From the NCBI RefSeq assembly GCF_014048465.1, contig NZ_PDLY01000001.1, forward strand, positions 62,001 to 126,000: a DNA stretch of 64,000 nucleotides, read 5' to 3'. Position numbers and translations under genes: made by a program. The stretch is from Bombella mellum (GTDB lineage: Bacteria; Pseudomonadota; Alphaproteobacteria; Acetobacterales; Acetobacteraceae). Positions 4,155 to 12,330 of the stretch are shown in pieces (position 1 is the stretch's first letter; the number at the start of each line of letters is the position of its first letter). The notes below the pieces were generated by a model, which ran no database searches, was not told where the DNA came from, and saw only the letters and a program-made list of their open reading frames with translations.

Positions 4155-5180
4155 TCAGATTCCTGTCATGGTGACACAGGCCACCGGGTAGAACCAGATG
4201 GTTCCCCATGTGCCCTGGGACTTTTTCTGGCGGATGTAGGAGCTGTAGCGTTCGACCGCATGGGCACGCAGTTTCTCGGTAAAGGCGGTGGTGACACTTT
4301 CCTGCCCGTCCACTTCCCGCAGGAAGAGCTGCATCTGCGTGACCTTGCTGAGGCCACCGGACAGCGTGCTGCCGGCTTCCGGCAGGGTCTCGATCTTCAG
4401 GTTGGGCAGGTTCTCCCGCAGCAGTTCACGAAGGGAGACACGGAACTGGTTCGTATACAGCAGGCACTGCTGCCGCTCCGTCGGAATGACGAGGGTCAGG
4501 GGGCTTTCCAGCGTGACATTTCCGCCCATCTGTTCGGAAAGCTGCTGGAAGGCCTTGAGAATGTCGGCATAGACCTGCATCGGGTCGGTCATGCTCAGCC
4601 AGTCGCTGCTGCCTGTTGCCGCCCCGGAAGGAGCAATCTTTGGGGTGGGCTGGATGGCCGGTGGCAGGGCCGTGTCATTGAGGGCACCACGCAGCTGGAG
4701 GCCTTCCATCCCGAAGAGGCTGATGCGGTTACTCGTCTTGTTCAGGACGGAGATGGACGCCTCATTCTTGCGGGAGACCCAGTCAAGCCGTGCCGTCCCC
4801 ATGCGTTCTGCCTCCCGTTCCCCCCAGCGGGTCCATGTCTGGAAATGGAAGGACTGACGCTGCACCCAGTTGGCGTTGACGTCACTGTCCCCGGAGCTGT
4901 CATAGTCTCCATAGGAAGCCGTCTGGCCGGAAAGTTCGATAAAGGGGAATTGCGCCGTGTCCGTCAGCCAGTCGCCTTTCTGGCCCTGGCCATAGATGGC
5001 CTCGGCCCGGATGGGCGTGATGAGAGCCTTGATGGTGCGAGGGTCGGCATAGGTGGAAAAGATGGACGGAATGCCGGAATTGGGAGCTGTCACGGCACCG
5101 TCGAAGGCCATGGCGTGGTCAAGCACGCCATGAATGCCGAAGTCACGTTTCAGCATGGCGGAAGAAATGGAGTGGGGCAT
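4155..5180 (-). CDS. Phage major capsid protein (DUF2184 family)
   Basis: 341 aa. It carries features of DUF2184 capsids: the segment GDWLTDTAQFPFIELSGQTA, a run rich in Asp/Ser (YGDYDSSGDSDVNANW) and a central segment PLTLVIPTERQQCLLYTN. The helix-rich TRWGEREAERMG segment precedes the part resembling an HK97-type spine. Length fits the family. It lies after the protease and cement genes and before DUF4054, the normal place. The protein would form the icosahedral shell after proteolytic maturation. Confidence 0.85.
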   Translation of the reverse strand: MPHSISSAMLKRDFGIHGVLDHAMAFDGAVTAPNSGIPSIFSTYADPRTIKALITPIRAEAIYGQGQKGDWLTDTAQFPFIELSGQTASYGDYDSSGDSDVNANWVQRQSFHFQTWTRWGEREAERMGTARLDWVSRKNEASISVLNKTSNRISLFGMEGLQLRGALNDTALPPAIQPTPKIAPSGAATGSSDWLSMTDPMQVYADILKAFQQLSEQMGGNVTLESPLTLVIPTERQQCLLYTNQFRVSLRELLRENLPNLKIETLPEAGSTLSGGLSKVTQMQLFLREVDGQESVTTAFTEKLRAHAVERYSSYIRQKKSQGTWGTIWFYPVACVTMTGI

Positions 5181-5769: not shown

Positions 5770-6699
5770 TCAGTAACGGCGTGGGGCCGTATACCCGGTG
5801 GTGGTTTCATCAGCGGCAGGAGCGTGCGTGACGGGCGGGGTCATGGCCTCCAGACGGGTCTGGACGAGGGCATGAAGACCGGCCTGATTGATGGCGGCGA
5901 GACTGTCCGCTGCCATGCCGGACTGCCGGAGGGCATAGCGGTAGACGTCATCGGCACTTTCCATGCCATGAACCTCTCCGACCAGAGGGCGGACAAGGCG
6001 GCGTGCCTCCTCCGTGGCCTGGCGCAGGGTACGGTCGGCGGAAAGGGCCTTCTGGATGGCCTCGTTCAGGGCAGATTCCGCCTCTTCATGGCGGGGTACC
6101 TCGGCGGCGGGCGTGTTGTCTTTCCGTGTCATGGTGGTGGCTGCTTTCCCTGTGGCTGAAGAATCATGGACCAGTACGTCAGGGCCGGCCCGTCCTTTTG
6201 TTACGAGAGCAATATGGTTTCCCCGGATGTTGATCATGCGTCCGTCATAGGGCTGACCCTCATGGGTGCCCGGTGTCATGTCCGCCTCATAGGCATAGCC
6301 GCAGGACAGTTCCTTCTGGTCACCGGACTGGATGCGGGTGATGGCAGGACCATCAAAGATGACCATGCCGACCGTCAGGTAGGGGCTTTCGAAGCGGGCA
6401 TTGTCCATGGTGGAGCCGACTGTCAGTTCCCTTGGGTGGGCGTCTGCACTGGTGGGGACGTGTTCCTCCAGAACAGGCAGGGAGTTGAAACTGTCTGCCG
6501 CCCTTTCCAGTTCCTTCGGGTCCCGCAGGAGGCGGTAGGACTGGTCCGGGTTCAGGCCCAGCCGGACATGGTCGGGAATTTCCCGTCCCTGATAGAGGCA
6601 GATGTTGGCCTTGCTGATGGGAGTCCGTTCCACACGGAGACGTCCGTTGTCATCAAAACTGCGGACGGAACCGGTGCGGTCATAGGCGAGAATGGTCAT
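5770..6699 (-). CDS. Phage DUF2213 protein, probable prohead maturation protease
   Basis: 309 aa. N-terminal half shows the DUF2213 pattern: YDRTGSVRSFDDNGRLRVE, then SLPVLEEHVPTS, ELTVGSTMDNARFESPYL, the conserved KELSCGYAYEADMTPGTHEG and a GNHIALVTKGRAGPDV box. DUF2213 proteins are regarded as head proteases with a C-terminal scaffold; the helical, charged C-terminal 120 residues here fit a scaffold tail. Its ATG at 6699 overlaps the portal stop by four bases (ATGA), so translation is coupled. Confidence 0.8.
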   Translation of the reverse strand: MTILAYDRTGSVRSFDDNGRLRVERTPISKANICLYQGREIPDHVRLGLNPDQSYRLLRDPKELERAADSFNSLPVLEEHVPTSADAHPRELTVGSTMDNARFESPYLTVGMVIFDGPAITRIQSGDQKELSCGYAYEADMTPGTHEGQPYDGRMINIRGNHIALVTKGRAGPDVLVHDSSATGKAATTMTRKDNTPAAEVPRHEEAESALNEAIQKALSADRTLRQATEEARRLVRPLVGEVHGMESADDVYRYALRQSGMAADSLAAINQAGLHALVQTRLEAMTPPVTHAPAADETTTGYTAPRRY

Positions 6700-8135
6700 G
6701 AGGCCTCGGATGGCTGTGGTTGTGTGGTCTGCTGCCAGAGGGGCTTGAAGGTGATCTCCAGCGCAGGGTCGGTGTCTCCCCAGAGGTTGAGCTGGATCAG
6801 GGTGAGCAGGCGGCTCAGCACGGGCCGCATGTAGGCTTCCTGAAAAGCGGCGATCTCATCGTAGAACACCCTGATCTCTCCGGCTGAGGAGGCGTTCAGC
6901 CCGTTGGGGGTGATGCCGAAGAGCTTCACGAGCGGGATGCCGGGGATGGAGGCCATGGCTTCCATGGCCTGGGCCTGTAGGTCGGCAAGTCCTGTCAGGG
7001 GTGTGGCCACGATGGACACATCCTCGTTCTGCCGGTCGGCCACGATGATGTCCTGTCCTTCGGAAATTTTCTGCATGAAGGAGGCCCGCCCTGTGATGGA
7101 GGCTGTCGGGTCGGCCTCATCGCCGGTGCCGGTGGCCATCAGGCTGCCCATGTCGGTCTTCAGGACAAGCCTAGAGAAATTGGCCGTGATGTTGCTGATG
7201 CTGTTGCGGGTCCGCAGGAAGTTGTGGACATAGGGGCGTAGCTGCTGTGTCAGGCTCATCCCGCCGAAATTGAATGATGGTTTGAAGAGGTCGGATACGC
7301 CATAGGGCACCATGCTGATGAGCCTGTCCCGATGGACAAGGCTACCCTGCACCCACCAGTTGCGGGGCCGGTAATAGTCATCCTGCAGGGGGGAGTCGGC
7401 ATTGTAGGCGTTGGGTGTGGTCCAGACCGGTTCGATGTTTTTCAGCCCGGCCAGAGTTCCCCTGCGGACCCCGTGGGGGGTGAGGGGCAGAGGGAGTGTC
7501 TGCCCATAGGTCGTGCGGGGCGTGTCCGCCATGTTGAGCCAGATATGGCCGATGCCGTAGAGCAGGCTGTCCAGAATCTGCTGGTGCAGCAGCTCGCGGA
7601 CATTCAGCCGTTTCAGTTCCACATCCAGCGCATGAAGGCGGGTTGCGGGATCTGGCGGAAGAGCCGGAGAGGGATGGTCCGTGGGGTTGTGGGTGCTGAG
7701 GCTGATCCATTCCCGTGTGGCTTCCCGTGCGATGACATCACAGGGTTTGCGGAACTCCGCCCGCTGGGCCATCTGGGCGAGGGTCGGATACCCCAGAAAA
7801 CCAAGCCCGTCGGCCATCCATGATGGTTGGGCTGCCGTCTGTCCCATGGCCCAGCTGGTCATGTCCATCATGGTCGTGGGAGCAGAATCCATCCCGGGCT
7901 GGTCATGCCCTTCCGGCACGACGCCCGGCGGTGGCCGGTAGGGGGCGAGTGGCGTGGCCGTCGTCCTGTCATCGGGGGCAGGGATGGTGTGGGAGGCCCG
8001 CCACAGACGGGTCAGCCAGTGGGGGCTTGTCTTTCCGGCCGTACTGGTGTGACGTGGAGCAGTGGGTTCCTGCCGAGGGCGTGCGGTCGTTGTGGTCTGT
8101 TTTTCAAACAGACGGGTGAGAGAAAAACCGGGCAT
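6696..8135 (-). CDS. Phage portal protein (DUF1073 family)
   Basis: 479 aa from the ATG at 8135; a TTG two codons earlier is also possible. The typical DUF1073 region begins near CDVIAREATREWISLST and continues through LLHQQILDSLLYGIGHIWLNM. An internal segment NGLNASSAGEIRVFYDEIAAFQEAY resembles the stem and crown helices of portals. The portal ring sits at one capsid vertex and is the channel for DNA packaging. Public annotations sometimes label DUF1073 proteins as anti-CBASS Acb1-like; gene order supports portal here. It overlaps the protease gene by four bases. Confidence 0.85.
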   Translation of the reverse strand: MPGFSLTRLFEKQTTTTARPRQEPTAPRHTSTAGKTSPHWLTRLWRASHTIPAPDDRTTATPLAPYRPPPGVVPEGHDQPGMDSAPTTMMDMTSWAMGQTAAQPSWMADGLGFLGYPTLAQMAQRAEFRKPCDVIAREATREWISLSTHNPTDHPSPALPPDPATRLHALDVELKRLNVRELLHQQILDSLLYGIGHIWLNMADTPRTTYGQTLPLPLTPHGVRRGTLAGLKNIEPVWTTPNAYNADSPLQDDYYRPRNWWVQGSLVHRDRLISMVPYGVSDLFKPSFNFGGMSLTQQLRPYVHNFLRTRNSISNITANFSRLVLKTDMGSLMATGTGDEADPTASITGRASFMQKISEGQDIIVADRQNEDVSIVATPLTGLADLQAQAMEAMASIPGIPLVKLFGITPNGLNASSAGEIRVFYDEIAAFQEAYMRPVLSRLLTLIQLNLWGDTDPALEITFKPLWQQTTQPQPSEAS

Positions 8136-8171
8136 GGGCAAGGCCTATCTGTAACGGAAAGGAAACGTGTC

Positions 8172-8315: not shown

Positions 8316-9545
8316 TCAGGTGGGTGGTGCAAACCGTGAGAAATCCGGCAGGGGGGACCGGTTGGTGATGAGGCCATCCAGAGCGTAACGCAGGGCGTCG
8401 AGGTAATGGTTGTTTGCATCTTCCACCTGCGGGAGGACATCGCCTGTCAGCGGGTCCGACCTGTAACGGTAGAGGCGGAACTCACGGGCTGTCTGCTGGC
8501 AGCGGGGATGGATGCGGATGGACCGGAAGGAGCGCAGCCTCTCGATGCCATCCTGCACGCTTCCGGGCCATTTTCGGGCGGCACTGATGCGGAAATGATG
8601 GTGGGTGCGAAGGTAACTGATCGTTTCCGGTCGGGCACCGTCTGCCCGGATGGGCCAGTGGCGGATGCCCGGTATCCTGTCGAACAGGGCAGGCAGGTGG
8701 TCCAGTGGAATGTGGGTGCCGCCTGCCTCATGGTCGACATGGAGGATGTCCTCGTGAATGAAGCAGCGTATGACGGCCGTGGGGTCCCGTGAGAAGCCCC
8801 AGTCCACCCCGAAATGGAAGCGGCATCTGCTGGGGGACTGGAACTCTTCAACCGTGATGCGGTCGGGGAAGATGAGGGCGTCATGATGCAGCTGGTAGCC
8901 ACCTTCCCAGATGTGGTCATAATCCTGTGGACGCAGACGCTGGTCCCGTATCCGTTCCTGTTCCAGAACATCCGGGAACCACGGATTGTCCGACCAGTTC
9001 GCCCGGATCGTGATGAAGGAGGGGTCACCTTCCGTGGCAGGATCGCGCATGAAGGCATCCACAGGGTCGGATGGCTGGCCGGGATTCCAGCTGAACCAGA
9101 GTTCGGAACCGGGCCGACGGATGGTCGGACGCAGGAGCGTCAGAGATTTGGCAGAGAGGGACTGCGCCTCCTCCACCCAGGCGATGTCCATTCCTTCCAG
9201 GGATTTCATGGTCTCGGCATTGTGGGACTGCATCCCCTGGAAGAGGATGACACCCCCTCCGGGTGTACGGATTTCCCGCTCCAGCACCGTGAAGAGAGGG
9301 GATAGATTCAGCCGCATGATGGTGTCCCGGAGCAGCTGGTGAACGGAAACGGTCAGGGATTTCTGGATTTCCCGGATGCAGACCGCCCGCAACCCGGGGC
9401 GCAGTGTGGCCTGTTCGATCAGCATTCCGGCAAAGAAACAGGACTTCCCGGAACCTCGTCCTCCCCAGATGCCTTTATAGCGGGCAGGCTGGAGAAGGGG
9501 CGCAAAGGCCCGGGGTGTCATGATGGTGACCCGGTCTGTTGTCAC
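8316..9545 (-). CDS. Phage terminase large subunit
   Basis: 409 aa. ATPase part: Walker A GGRGSGKS at residues 28-35, Walker B with catalytic Glu in DIAWVEEAQ near 120-128. Nuclease part: FGVDWGFSRDP around 246-256, giving the first metal-binding Asp (D248). It packages DNA into the prohead with ATP hydrolysis and cuts the concatemer. Length and motif spacing fit the PBSX/Terminase_3-6 group. The start is a GTG at 9545 preceded by a GGGG stretch; ATG at 9521 would remove eight residues without affecting motifs. Confidence 0.9.
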   Translation of the reverse strand: MTTDRVTIMTPRAFAPLLQPARYKGIWGGRGSGKSCFFAGMLIEQATLRPGLRAVCIREIQKSLTVSVHQLLRDTIMRLNLSPLFTVLEREIRTPGGGVILFQGMQSHNAETMKSLEGMDIAWVEEAQSLSAKSLTLLRPTIRRPGSELWFSWNPGQPSDPVDAFMRDPATEGDPSFITIRANWSDNPWFPDVLEQERIRDQRLRPQDYDHIWEGGYQLHHDALIFPDRITVEEFQSPSRCRFHFGVDWGFSRDPTAVIRCFIHEDILHVDHEAGGTHIPLDHLPALFDRIPGIRHWPIRADGARPETISYLRTHHHFRISAARKWPGSVQDGIERLRSFRSIRIHPRCQQTAREFRLYRYRSDPLTGDVLPQVEDANNHYLDALRYALDGLITNRSPLPDFSRFAPPT

Positions 9546-9559
9546 GAGGCCCCTGCATT

Positions 9560-10018
9560 TTATTGTGGTGGTGTGTCTGGTGGCATCGTGCCCGGAGCAG
9601 TGGGATCAATGATGAGCCGCTGGATGGTGTGTATGGGACCGCCATCATGCCCGGCATGTTCCACGGTCTGCCGGTCGCCATACCGTTTCGGGGCACGGCG
9701 GGCCATGACCCAGCGGAGCATGTCGAACCGCAGCTTGTGGAGACTGACCGTGGCTGCATCGGCTTTTTCCGGTATGGCCCTGATATGGGAGAGGATGGTG
9801 CTTTCCAGACTGTCGGCAGACAGTTCCCGTGCCCGGCGATAACGGGACAGGAGGGCGGGATGTTTCTGGAGCCAACGATAGAAGCTGCGCAGGGTGGGGC
9901 GTCGTGCGCCAGAGCAGATGTCATGCAGGGGAGTGCCGAGCATGAGGTCTTCCATCATTTCATCGAAGAGTTTCTGCGAGAAGAAGACAGGTTTTTTGCG
10001 GGGTGTGTCATGAGGCAT
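9560..10018 (-). CDS. Phage terminase small subunit
   Basis: 152 aa from the ATG at 10018, which overlaps the stop of the preceding gene (10008) by eleven bases. N-terminal residues KPVFFSQKLFDEMMEDLMLG and LRSFYRWLQKHPALLSRYRRARE give the helix-turn-helix pattern of DNA-binding small terminases; the middle is a helical oligomerisation segment and RRAPKRYGDRQTVEHAG is the usual end of this family. It recognises the pac or cos site and stimulates the large subunit encoded 14 bases downstream. Confidence 0.8.
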   Translation of the reverse strand: MPHDTPRKKPVFFSQKLFDEMMEDLMLGTPLHDICSGARRPTLRSFYRWLQKHPALLSRYRRARELSADSLESTILSHIRAIPEKADAATVSLHKLRFDMLRWVMARRAPKRYGDRQTVEHAGHDGGPIHTIQRLIIDPTAPGTMPPDTPPQ

Positions 10019-10409
10019 GGGTCGCATGGAGGCGGTTGTGGGCGTGTCTGCCAGAGAAGAAGGGCAGCCGGTCACTTTCCAGAGCGTTGACCTGCAGTTC
10101 CCGGTGTGTCCTGAGGCGGAGCTGGGTGAGGGTGAAGGTGGAGAGACTTGCAGGCTGGGGGGTGACGGCCTGACGCTGCTTGAGGAAGGGAATGGCCCTG
10201 ACGACCGCATTCTGTTTTAGTCCCAGAATGAGTTCATCCCGCCATGTCAGGGGAATGTCGGCCCTGTGTGTCAGGGCCGGAGCTTCGTGGATCGGGCAGA
10301 GAACAAGACTGTTGCCCTCTTCAGCAAGGACGGTGCAGAGGCCACGTCTTGTCATGACGATACGGCCCCGTCCGAGCGGCTGCCCGGTGGTAGGAAAGGA
10401 ATGTGACAC
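10008..10409 (-). CDS. Small phage protein, possibly SH3-barrel/MazF-like
   Basis: 133 aa from a GTG at 10409; an ATG at 10355 is also possible (MTRRGLCTVLAEEG). It is the first gene of the late operon. The pattern GRIVMTRRGLC...LVLCPIHEAP...DIPLTWRDELILGLKQNAVVRA recalls the MazF/PemK barrel (strand, loop, LCPI strand, then IPL...GL segment), but the signature residues of active MazF are not convincingly present and no antitoxin gene is adjacent. It may be a structural or nucleic-acid-binding relative. Coding status is supported by tight overlap with terS. Confidence 0.5.
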   Translation of the reverse strand: MSHSFPTTGQPLGRGRIVMTRRGLCTVLAEEGNSLVLCPIHEAPALTHRADIPLTWRDELILGLKQNAVVRAIPFLKQRQAVTPQPASLSTFTLTQLRLRTHRELQVNALESDRLPFFSGRHAHNRLHATHAS

Positions 10410-10473: not shown

Positions 10474-10578
10474 TACAGGCACGGTGCAGGGATGCTGTTT
10501 CCTGAATGAGGAGACAGTCCAGAAAGTCGGAATGAGATGAAGAGAAAGACACGGCCCTGAGACAGGAGAGTGTCAAAG

Positions 10579-10610
10579 AAAAAGCCGTGTCCTTCTTTAG
10601 GCACACGGCT
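10579..10610 (-). terminator. Strong terminator just downstream of the phage late promoter
   Basis: Minus-strand stem AGCCGTGT / ACACGGCT (8 bp) with a 12-base loop, followed by TTTTTCTTT. It begins only about 10 bases after the expected start of transcription from the promoter at 10626-10654, so the default transcript would be about 40-45 nt. Late genes beyond it would need read-through or antitermination. Confidence 0.8.
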
Positions 10611-10625
10611 CGAGATGATGAGGTT

Positions 10626-10654
10626 TTTATAGGATGAAACGGGTATTCTGTCAA
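10626..10654 (-). promoter_or_regulatory. Probable phage late promoter (near-consensus sigma-70)
   Basis: On the minus strand: TTGACA (10654-10649), exactly 17 bases, TATAAA (10631-10626). The -35 is perfect and the -10 has five of six matches. It starts 29 bases after the stop of the putative late regulator and points to the terminase operon. Confidence 0.8.
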
Positions 10655-10682
10655 CAGGAAAATGACGTGACGGGAAAAGGGA

Positions 10683-11330
10683 TCAGTTACGGAATTCCAC
10701 AGCCGTCAGTCTGCGGGGTTTTTCGAGGATATGCTCGCCATGTTTCATGAGCCTATCAAGACTTTTTGGGGCAAGGTCGTATTTCCTGGCCAGTGTTTCC
10801 ATGTCCAGCCCTTCACGATGCTGTCGGGCGATGAGAACGGCCTTCCGTGCTTTTTTGCGCCTCTGTTCCTGCCAGAAGTCAGCCAGCATCTCCAGTGTGG
10901 CGGCACACTCTTCCGCCGCTTTCTTGCGGGCAATGTCCGGGTGGAGGTCAGGATAGAGTCTGTGTCCCAGAGAGGTGAAGGACCAGCCAAGCCCCAGCAT
11001 GTTGACCAGAAGCTGATGCCGTGCCCGTCCGGCATGACGCCGGAAGGCGTTCAGCCTTCCCCAGGCCTTGCCCTGCAACGCATTGAAGGTAAAGACATTT
11101 CCTGCCTGGGCCGGGACACCACCATTCTTCATGATGTCGAGATAGCCATGTTCGGCCAGCATCCAGTCCTTGATCCACTGTTCTGCTTCTGAAATGACTT
11201 CAGCCTTCAGGCGTGATGACAGGGCTCCAAGAGTATTGGCACGACGACGCCGACGGCCAATCCCCTCATAGTCGGCCTTGCGTGTGCGTTCCCGTGTGGG
11301 AGTGGTCGTGATGTGAGCAATGCGAGACAA
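10683..11330 (-). CDS. Putative phage late regulator (candidate Q-like antiterminator)
   Basis: 215 aa from a TTG at 11330 with GGGAG seven bases upstream; ATG at 11375 would add 15 residues but has a poorer site. The N-terminus is strongly basic (PTRERTRKAD at 11-20, then RRRRR at 26-30), like the arginine-rich RNA-binding segments of antiterminators. The C-terminal 55 residues hold a helix-turn-helix (GLDMETLARKYDLAPKSLDR). No family is recognised. It lies between the repressor control region and the late promoter, where lambdoid phages encode Q, and would be expressed on induction. DNA-binding activator is the alternative to antiterminator. Confidence 0.6.
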   Translation of the reverse strand: MSRIAHITTTPTRERTRKADYEGIGRRRRRANTLGALSSRLKAEVISEAEQWIKDWMLAEHGYLDIMKNGGVPAQAGNVFTFNALQGKAWGRLNAFRRHAGRARHQLLVNMLGLGWSFTSLGHRLYPDLHPDIARKKAAEECAATLEMLADFWQEQRRKKARKAVLIARQHREGLDMETLARKYDLAPKSLDRLMKHGEHILEKPRRLTAVEFRN

Positions 11331-11476
11331 GAGAAATCTCCCTAAAAAAACTGCGTGATGGTCGTGAAGGGGCATGACCCCTTTGCAGGAGTCTTCATGA
11401 GAGGATGCAACAGTGAGGGTATTCTTCCCTGGCAGGTGAGTGTCGGAGAGCCTTCTGCGGGAGCTGAAACAGAAAT

Positions 11477-11501
11477 GCGGGTATATCCCCTCAAATGTCA
11501 A
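11477..11501 (-). promoter_or_regulatory. Promoter of the late-regulator gene with an operator-like site in its spacer
   Basis: Minus-strand TTGACA at 11501-11496 is a perfect -35; the -10 expected near 11478-11473 is poor (GCATTT). Between them lies the near-palindrome GGGGATATACCC (11490-11479), which resembles the perfect palindrome at 11553. A repressor bound here would block polymerase, so the arrangement fits direct control by the divergent S24 repressor. Confidence 0.5.
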
Positions 11502-11526
11502 GCAAATTGATGAGGAATCGGAAAAC

Positions 11527-11567
11527 TGTCCCTATGGACAATTCGCTTCTGGCGGGGATAATCCCCG
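11527..11567 (+). promoter_or_regulatory. Two palindromic operator candidates in front of the repressor gene
   Basis: TGTCC-CTAT-GGACA (11527-11540) and CGGGGAT-A-ATCCCCG (11553-11567), both perfect inverted repeats. The second ends one base before the repressor ATG and shares GGG..AT.CCCC with the site at 11477. They are likely repressor binding sites for autoregulation; which one is used cannot be told from sequence. A weak plus-strand promoter (TTGATG at 11507, CCCTAT at 11530, spacer 17) overlaps the first. Confidence 0.5.
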
Positions 11568-11568
11568 T

Positions 11569-12330
11569 ATGTCCATTGAATCTCTTCTGTCCCGTCTTGA
11601 TTCTCTTCTGGCTGCGCAGGGTCTGTCCGACCGGCGTGCGTGCCTGAAAGCCCGTGAGATCAACCCGGCTGTTGGCGTGGATTTTCTGAGGGACATGCGC
11701 AGGCGTAAACATCTTCCCCGTACGGACAAGCTGGCTGCTCTGGCGCAGGTACTGGAGGTCCCCGTGGGTACGCTGGTTGCGGAGGTCAGCCGTCAGGATG
11801 AACCGGAGGATCGGAGCCTGATGGAGGCCGGGGAGGCTCCGTTCCTGTCTGTCTCGCAGGTCCGGGTCTGCGGAGAGGTTCAGGCAGGTGTCTGGAAAGA
11901 GGCTCAGGAATGGCCCCTGTCAGATCAGTACAGGATCACCATTCCTTATGATGCGGCCTGCGCCGGGCTGAGGCGTTATGGGCTGGTCGTCCGGGGGCAG
12001 TCCATGAACCGGGTGTTTCAGGAAGGCTCGGTGGTCATTGTCGTCAATTTCTCGGAACTGGGGCGGAGGCCCCGTAATGGGGATTACGTCGTGGCGATGC
12101 AGCGTTCGGCCGTGTCGGACAGTTTTGAGGCGACCATCAAGGCGGTCCAGATCAAGGACAATGGACAGATGGTGCTGTGGCCTCAGAGTACCGAGCCAGA
12201 ATTTCAGGCTCCTATCATTCTTCCCGCTCCCGAAGAGACGGTCTGCCACAGTGCAGTGGGAAGTCCGGACGTGACCATTCTGGCACTGGTCGTGGGCAGT
12301 TACATGCCGATGCCGAGGGCTTCTTTTTAG
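11569..12330 (+). CDS. Phage repressor, HTH plus S24 (LexA/UmuD-like) self-cleaving peptidase
   Basis: 253 aa from the ATG at 11569; an open frame continues upstream but that part covers the operators. Residues 1-70 form the DNA-binding region (LLAAQGLSDRRACLKAREIN...LRDMRRRKHLPRTDKLAALA). The S24 domain follows: probable cleavage site C101-G102 in VRVCGEVQAG, nucleophile S145 in VVRGQSMNRVF and lysine K191 in FEATIKAVQI. It should hold the prophage silent and cleave itself when RecA filaments form. dinB starts 24 bases after its stop. All residues needed for autocleavage are present. Confidence 0.88.
   Translation: MSIESLLSRLDSLLAAQGLSDRRACLKAREINPAVGVDFLRDMRRRKHLPRTDKLAALAQVLEVPVGTLVAEVSRQDEPEDRSLMEAGEAPFLSVSQVRVCGEVQAGVWKEAQEWPLSDQYRITIPYDAACAGLRRYGLVVRGQSMNRVFQEGSVVIVVNFSELGRRPRNGDYVVAMQRSAVSDSFEATIKAVQIKDNGQMVLWPQSTEPEFQAPIILPAPEETVCHSAVGSPDVTILALVVGSYMPMPRASF

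Follow-up and report, generated by a model that had tools for sequence, protein, structure and literature searches.

A putative Q-type antitermination switch with a Q21-like protein of distinct sequence in a phage-derived cluster of Bombella

Introduction

The job of a phage Q protein can be done by proteins of unrelated sequence, as AlpA and GafZ illustrate. AlpA targets lysis genes and another operon, and at its alpB and PA0807 promoters in Pseudomonas aeruginosa a terminator lies near the start, at 54 and 26 nt, respectively. GafZ is the antiterminator of a particle cluster, a gene transfer agent, in Alphaproteobacteria and works with GafY and IHF. The Caulobacter gene transfer agent cluster uses an activator plus an antiterminator, according to the accessible part of PMC11150451.

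The Q proteins of lambdoid phages form three sequence families, as stated in the available part of PMC7171158, and they require a -10-like sequence for a sigma-dependent pause, according to excerpts of PMC6606751. In phage lambda the order is Q gene, promoter, -10-like element, terminator and late genes; we read pR' as TTGACT-17-TAAATT-6-AACGAT, and the start of the T tract is 188 nt from +1. Lambda Q belongs to the PF03589 family and, in the same excerpts (PMC6606751), has a fold other than that of phage 21 Q (21Q), which is described there as resembling region 4 of sigma. At the alpB promoter the -10-like sequence CACGAT extends from -1 to +5, and alterations there impair antitermination, according to the available text of PMC9371919.

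Here we analyse a locus of Bombella mellum whose geometry an earlier note had likened to that of lambda Q, pR' and tR'. All coordinates are positions in a 64,000-nt window of contig NZ_PDLY01000001.1, the whole stretch of DNA analysed, from a genome of 2.07 Mb. Prophages in Bombella genomes have been called by PHASTER, as given in the accessible parts of PMC9147383 and PMC12282179. Among the matches listed from the open-licence literature we found no description of such an antitermination system in acetic acid bacteria, and a search of that literature for gene transfer agents together with acetic acid bacteria gave no description of this system within the text available.

Results

The control block and its neighbours

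The locus is read on the minus strand, where the gene for a 215-residue protein (10683-11330) is followed, 28 bases after its stop codon, by a TTGACA -35 element (10649-10654), a spacer of 17 nt and a TATAAA -10 element (10626-10631). This promoter, TTGACA-17-TATAAA, had been proposed in the earlier note; it is located at 10654-10626 and is the single match to TTGACA-N16-18-TATAAW in the whole genome, in which the reversed pattern, searched as a control, gave 0 matches. The spacer contains a CCCG block (10640-10643) that is a candidate Q-binding element (QBE), a role assigned by analogy with the position of the QBE in excerpts of PMC6606751. Placing the start 7 bases past the -10 element gives a predicted +1 at 10619, and on that start the hexamer CATCAT (10615-10620, minus strand) spans -1 to +5 and is a candidate sigma-dependent pause element.

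About 10 bases past the expected start, where a strong hairpin with an 8-bp stem had been pointed out, a tR'-like terminator hairpin (10583-10610) is formed by AGCCGTGT (10610-10603) and ACACGGCT (10590-10583) around a loop of 12, and is followed by the T tract TTTTCTTT (10575-10582). Its RNA fold of -18.3 kcal/mol has a z of -3.9, and 0 of 200 shuffles were as good; the hairpin pattern has one match in the genome, at 10583-10610. By geometry alone, the short leader RNA would be about 42 nt long (10578-10619), in keeping with the 40-45 nt suggested before. A generic promoter and terminator scan listed neither the late promoter nor the hairpin, because its rule accepts only -10 elements that end in T and loops no longer than 8.

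The late genes had been placed beyond the hairpin, and family matches bear this out; all of these genes are on the minus strand. The one nearest to the terminator (10008-10409) encodes 133 residues and is found in 9/9 genus records. It is followed by the terminase small subunit TerS (9560-10027 from a putative start codon in the frame 9560-10210; PF20901, E 1.2e-23), the terminase large subunit TerL (8316-9545; PF04466, E 8.8e-28), the portal protein (6696-8141; PF06381, E 1.2e-63), the head maturation protease (DUF2213; 5770-6699), the major head protein (4155-5180; phrog_264, E 1.1e-57) and the tail sheath protein (704-1873; phrog_205, E 2.7e-68). Short genes similar by eye to the 133-residue gene follow the control block in several relatives, and the terminase type behind them changes.

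Divergent from the gene for the 215-residue protein, on the plus strand, is a CI/LexA-type repressor gene (Peptidase_S24; 11569-12330 from a putative start in the frame 11440-12330). Two palindromes on the minus strand are candidate operators. One, GGGGATATACCC (11479-11490), comes directly after a conserved TTGACA (11501-11496) in the DNA ahead of the gene for the 215-residue protein; the other, GGGGATTATCCCC (11554-11566), overlaps a -10 element of the repressor gene, where the generic scan lists a promoter-like site at 11535-11562. Lying in the divergent promoter region, these palindromes suggest control of the gene for the 215-residue protein by the repressor, and on this reading of the sequence the two genes appear to form the switch of the cluster.

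Conservation in the genus

Nine records represent the close relatives (six Bombella, one Parasaccharibacter apium and two other Acetobacteraceae). An orthologue of the gene for the 215-residue protein is present in 10 of the 11 genus genomes searched, at 71-100% identity; the eleventh (G007) has a paralogue at 50% identity and no orthologue. Genus-wide conservation and the CATCAT hexamer at 10620-10615 both go beyond the earlier note. In 10/10 orthologues the stop codon is followed by TTGACA, the 17-nt spacer, the -10 element, CATCAT and the hairpin; the -10 hexamer is TATAAA in eight of them, TATAAG in one (L002) and TACAAA in one (L004).

Among the eight non-redundant orthologues the invariant columns concentrate in the proposed elements: the -35 element and the -10-like hexamer are invariant throughout (6 of 6 each), as are 10 of 11 columns of the 3' stem and Ts, 6 of 8 of the 5' stem and 4 of 6 of the -10 element. 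Invariant columns are fewer in the spacer (5 of 17, including CCCG, invariant in 8/8), the gap between the -10 element and the hexamer (2 of 5), the stretch from the stop codon to the -35 element (4 of 28) and the DNA downstream of the hairpin (3 of 100). At the level of the alignment, the control block is thus kept amid little-conserved non-coding DNA. Four same-genus paralogues, whose proteins are 38-50% identical, have CATGAT, CATGAT, CACGAT and TATAGT at the distance of CATCAT.

In an alignment of 11 hairpins from orthologues and paralogues 94.2% of the cells are paired, with little covariation: the observed score is equalled by 31 of 500 shuffles. The outer stem AGCCGT/ACGGCT, six pairs, is constant across the orthologues and three paralogues (window, L011, L029, L030). 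Judged from these sequences, conservation of the outer stem exceeds what terminator structure alone needs. Hairpins resembling that of the window also follow some remote relatives (L190, L194, L196, L199).

The Q-like protein

An open frame at 10683-11330, which starts with TTG and encodes a basic protein, and a C-terminal helix-turn-helix in the structural model (residues 161-214) agree with the basic helix-turn-helix protein that had been reported immediately upstream of the promoter. The protein belongs to phrog_16492, as do all 18 members of our alignment A1, and the library gives the function of this family as "unknown". The helix-turn-helix, encoded by 10683-10850, is a Bombella-specific extra; other members of A1 lack it or fail to align there.

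Searches of Pfam, NCBIfam and the PDB sequences gave no credible match to the protein, and tblastn against annotated phage records gave none. The Q21 family PF06530 was not matched by hmmscan at E<=1, by the 18 members at E<=0.1 or genome-wide, nor was it matched when the profile of the Q-like family was compared with it (P 0.1). PF03589, which recovers lambda Q itself at E 6e-58 as a control, matched neither the protein nor the 18 members. PF06323, given as the number of the Q82 family in the available part of PMC7171158, was not among the matches of the protein; a genome search with it was empty, as were its controls.

An AlphaFold model of the window protein has a mean pLDDT of 82.4. In a structural comparison phage 21 Q fills its first five rows (Z 9.4, 9.1, 8.7, 7.8 and 7.5), although Z values of 7-9 are common among helical proteins according to the structure tool's own note. 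The matches span residues 37-164, the part predicted to be Q21-like, and the best superposition is 3.0 Å over 100 residues. Below the Q21 rows come sigma region 4 (Z 7.2), with which the lowest Q21 rows are tied, and further down AlpA (7xya_G, Z 6.3). The presence of sigma rows at this place fits the likeness of 21Q to sigma region 4. A second model, whose lead sequence is a relative (L017) sharing 29% identity with the window protein, has Q21 in its top seven rows (Z 9.2-7.1), followed by 9n9q_C of an RNA-guided transcription complex (6.9), sigma entries (at most 6.6) and AlpA (7xyb_G, 5.2), with all remaining rows at Z 3.7 or less; the two models share alignment members. Foldseek alone was weak (E 0.71 for the window model and E 1.9 for the L017 model), and lambda Q was not among the fold matches listed for either. 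A low-confidence loop, residues 66-73, lies between helices 43-61 and 79-100 of the model; at a guess, it could be a nozzle loop.

Profiles of the Q-like family and of DUF6456 (PF20057) are colinear over 114 columns, weakly so (P 0.003, probability 10%), and a remote relationship between the two is possible from these profiles. The DUF6456 sequences L083-L092 are colinear with alignments A1 and A2 at P 0.003-0.013. DUF6456 has no match in this genome; it is the annotation given to GafA homologues in the accessible text of PMC9638019.

Paralogues and distant relatives

A composite score for the promoter plus the -10-like element, with a gap of 5 or 6 allowed, was compared with dinucleotide shuffles. 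It reached p<=0.013 in 10/10 orthologues and 4/4 same-genus paralogues. Of the 19 distant loci, 9 had p<=0.05 and the other 10 missed that level; lambda pR', scored in the same way as a control, gave p 0.05. We also used a blind offset test, in which the promoter was picked blind to the -10-like element and 21 offsets were scored. The mean -10-like score peaked at offset 5, with 4.2 in 8 orthologues, 4.3 in 4 paralogues and 0.9 in 18 distant loci, for which 2 of 400 shuffle sets reached the peak at any offset.

A wider set comprised 78 further loci from Acetobacteraceae matches outside the first set. Here the blind offset test failed, with a mean of -0.19 at offset 5 and the highest value, -0.08, at offset 13. 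A terminator was found behind 29 of the 78 genes, where shuffles predict 1.8, and 23 loci had p<=0.05 for the composite with gap 5 (3.9 expected); counted over the 29 clusters at 70% identity that hold no first-set member, a terminator was present in 10 (1.0 expected) and the composite in 8 (1.5 expected). The result for the wider set is thus mixed: the layout recurs, though not in every member. The same promoter score behind 10 Q21-family genes, intended as a positive control and run without shuffles, gave no consistent pattern; the score is therefore not a sensitive detector, and lambda was the only control with which it worked.

Distant relatives that have a terminator use other stem sequences. 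At L037, L045 and L046 the promoter and -10-like hexamer are present, and the part read ahead of the first late gene showed no hairpin; a terminator may lie further on or may have been lost. A terminase large subunit is encoded downstream in 16 of the 18 relatives tested, with Terminase_3 or Terminase_6 as the best model, and not in L039 and L047; L034 and L048 offered no frame and are outside the 18. The phrog_16492 profile matched in 76 of 397 Acetobacteraceae genomes searched, and a single-protein search of viral contigs matched 3 contigs.

The surrounding cluster

The control block lies in a phage-derived cluster of about 25 kb, which begins about 12.7 kb beyond the left edge of the window and ends at 12330. 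Its order is an endolysin-like gene (phrog_873, E 3.6e-45) in the left part, baseplate and tail genes, head and packaging genes, the control block, the Q-like gene and the divergent repressor. The four tyrosine-integrase matches of the genome are all elsewhere, no serine-recombinase match was found genome-wide, and no replication gene was found among the reading frames that were family-searched. The Q-like gene, the repressor and the late genes occur together with the flanking dinB, aldo-keto reductase and parE in 9/9 genus records besides the window, and the left flank is common to the window genome and G003.

Median pairwise dN/dS is 0.072 for the Q-like gene, 0.078 for TerL, 0.069 for the portal gene, 0.036 for the head protein and 0.092 for the repressor, with 0.072, 0.045 and 0.034 for three flanking host genes, all of these values being rough owing to high dS. 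On these estimates the genes of the cluster are under purifying selection, like the flanking host genes. The description of the element as a silent prophage thus needs correcting: it has no recognised integrase gene, sits at a single chromosomal site throughout the genus and evolves under purifying selection. These three features point to a cluster that is gene-transfer-agent- or PBSX-like rather than a recent prophage.

Identity to B. apis MRM1, counted per 100 bases, is 61-89 in the repressor and Q-like genes, 45-48 in the leader and 86-98 in the late genes; it climbs near 10400, with 92-98 just inside the first late gene. The late proteins are 91-99% identical, the Q-like protein 83% and the repressor 75%. 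This step in identity suggests an exchange of late genes between species in which the switch of each stayed in place, and the same difference (91-99% for late proteins against 83% and 75% for the switch) tempers a purely vertical history of the cluster.

Three short frames lie amid the baseplate genes of the left part, which is L065 from its position 7300 on; the frames are at 14170-15930 of L065 on the plus strand. They run opposite to their neighbours, have signal-peptide-like starts and match nothing in PHROGs; they are possible cargo genes.

Discussion

By sequence, the locus has the regulator gene directly upstream of the late promoter with the late genes behind, a sigma70 promoter with an intrinsic terminator between it and the first late gene in 10/10 orthologues, and a -10-like element in the initially transcribed region. 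The Q21 fold is seen in predicted models, and the protein falls outside the Q21, lambda Q and Q82 sequence families. In our view a switch that works by processive antitermination of the Q type, through a Q21-like protein of novel sequence, is the best reading and a probable one; it is supported by conservation in the orthologues, the -10-like element, the Q21-like fold and the recurrence of the layout in part of the relatives. Most likely the protein is a Q-type antiterminator from a new sequence family that has a pR' and tR' of its own.

The comparison with lambda stands for the order of the elements, the -10-like element and the 17-nt spacer. It does not extend to the protein, whose fold points to Q21, or to the spacing: the T tract begins about 38 nt from the start as against 188 in lambda, and the gap between the -10 and -10-like elements is 5 instead of 6. 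With the hairpin about 10 nt and the T tract about 38 nt past the start, the spacing is nearer to that of AlpA's PA0807 promoter. AlpA also shares the position of the -10-like element from -1 to +5 and the terminator near the start, its alpB hexamer CACGAT recurs in a paralogue (L028), and it appears in both fold lists, at Z 6.3 and 5.2; AlpA differs in its targets. Phage 21 Q and PR'21 share the predicted fold, the -10-like element in the initially transcribed region and the terminator before the late genes. In contrast to 21Q, the Bombella protein has no sequence similarity to PF06530 and carries the extra C-terminal helix-turn-helix, and the spacer holds the CCCG block and no TGAGCA repeats, whereas direct repeats of TGAGCA have been reported for PR'21 in the source text available. 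GafZ shares the setting, a particle cluster in Alphaproteobacteria, and differs in its partners; the DUF6456 link to it runs via the annotation of GafA homologues.

In the switch that we propose, RNA polymerase would start at 10619 from the strong promoter, with or without induction of the element. Sigma region 2 would then re-bind at CATCAT, and the polymerase would pause near +15. Without the 215-residue protein it would move on and terminate at the hairpin after about 42 nt, leaving the late genes off. Once the repressor is inactivated the 215-residue protein would be made, bind the promoter spacer beside the paused polymerase and, like phage 21 Q and AlpA, enter the RNA exit channel. The polymerase so modified would ignore this and later hairpins, and the late operon would be transcribed.

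The 215-residue protein might instead be a conventional DNA-binding activator, acting at the late promoter or at some other one, with late transcription raised through more initiation or partial readthrough and the hairpin serving only to end an early transcript. Sigma region 4 folds do come close behind Q21 in the structure list (Z 7.2 and below), the Bombella versions have a second helix-turn-helix, and the Caulobacter cluster also employs an activator (accessible part of PMC11150451). However, the promoter is already near consensus and needs none, the hairpin sits behind it and not before it, and the element at -1 to +5 is invariant in the orthologues yet has no evident role in simple activation; Q21 also ranks above sigma in both fold models. 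We regard an activator as unlikely.

Two further explanations concern the RNA and the state of the element. The constancy of six outer stem pairs across 11 sequences, more than the structure needs, and the uniqueness of the hairpin in the genome would suit a short RNA that is itself the conserved product, a trans-acting small regulatory RNA beside an incidental gene. Set against this, the terminators of distant relatives have different stems, the Rfam search gave no match at the gathering score and listed two matches, both at E 0.26, and the -10-like element and the position ahead of the late operon would be left unexplained, which makes a small regulatory RNA very improbable in our view. We give least credence of all to degenerate prophage leftovers, in which the parts look right and the switch no longer works. 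Such decay would fit the lack of a tyrosine-integrase match near the element, of any serine-recombinase match in the genome and of a replication gene among the frames family-searched, but the median dN/dS of the Q-like gene, TerL and the head protein (0.07, 0.08 and 0.04) is like that of flanking host genes, and the control block is kept in 10/10 orthologues.

Beyond the antitermination switch itself, we tentatively put forward a wider picture, possible but with the balance against it as a whole. Here phrog_16492 would be a further family of antiterminators with the Q21 fold, distinct in sequence and common among the phages of Acetobacteraceae, GafZ (with DUF6456) would belong to the same superfamily, and the Bombella switch, reduced to repressor and antiterminator, would run a domesticated particle cluster at one genus-wide site.

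If the antitermination reading is true, it adds to the antiterminators a family that is now of unknown function in the libraries. A candidate target site can be read beside many phrog_16492 genes, so the target is testable without a screen, and the system would give a compact terminator-override part for acetic acid bacteria. For the organisms themselves it would mean that a cluster kept across beehive-associated Bombella runs on the two-gene logic of a lambdoid phage.
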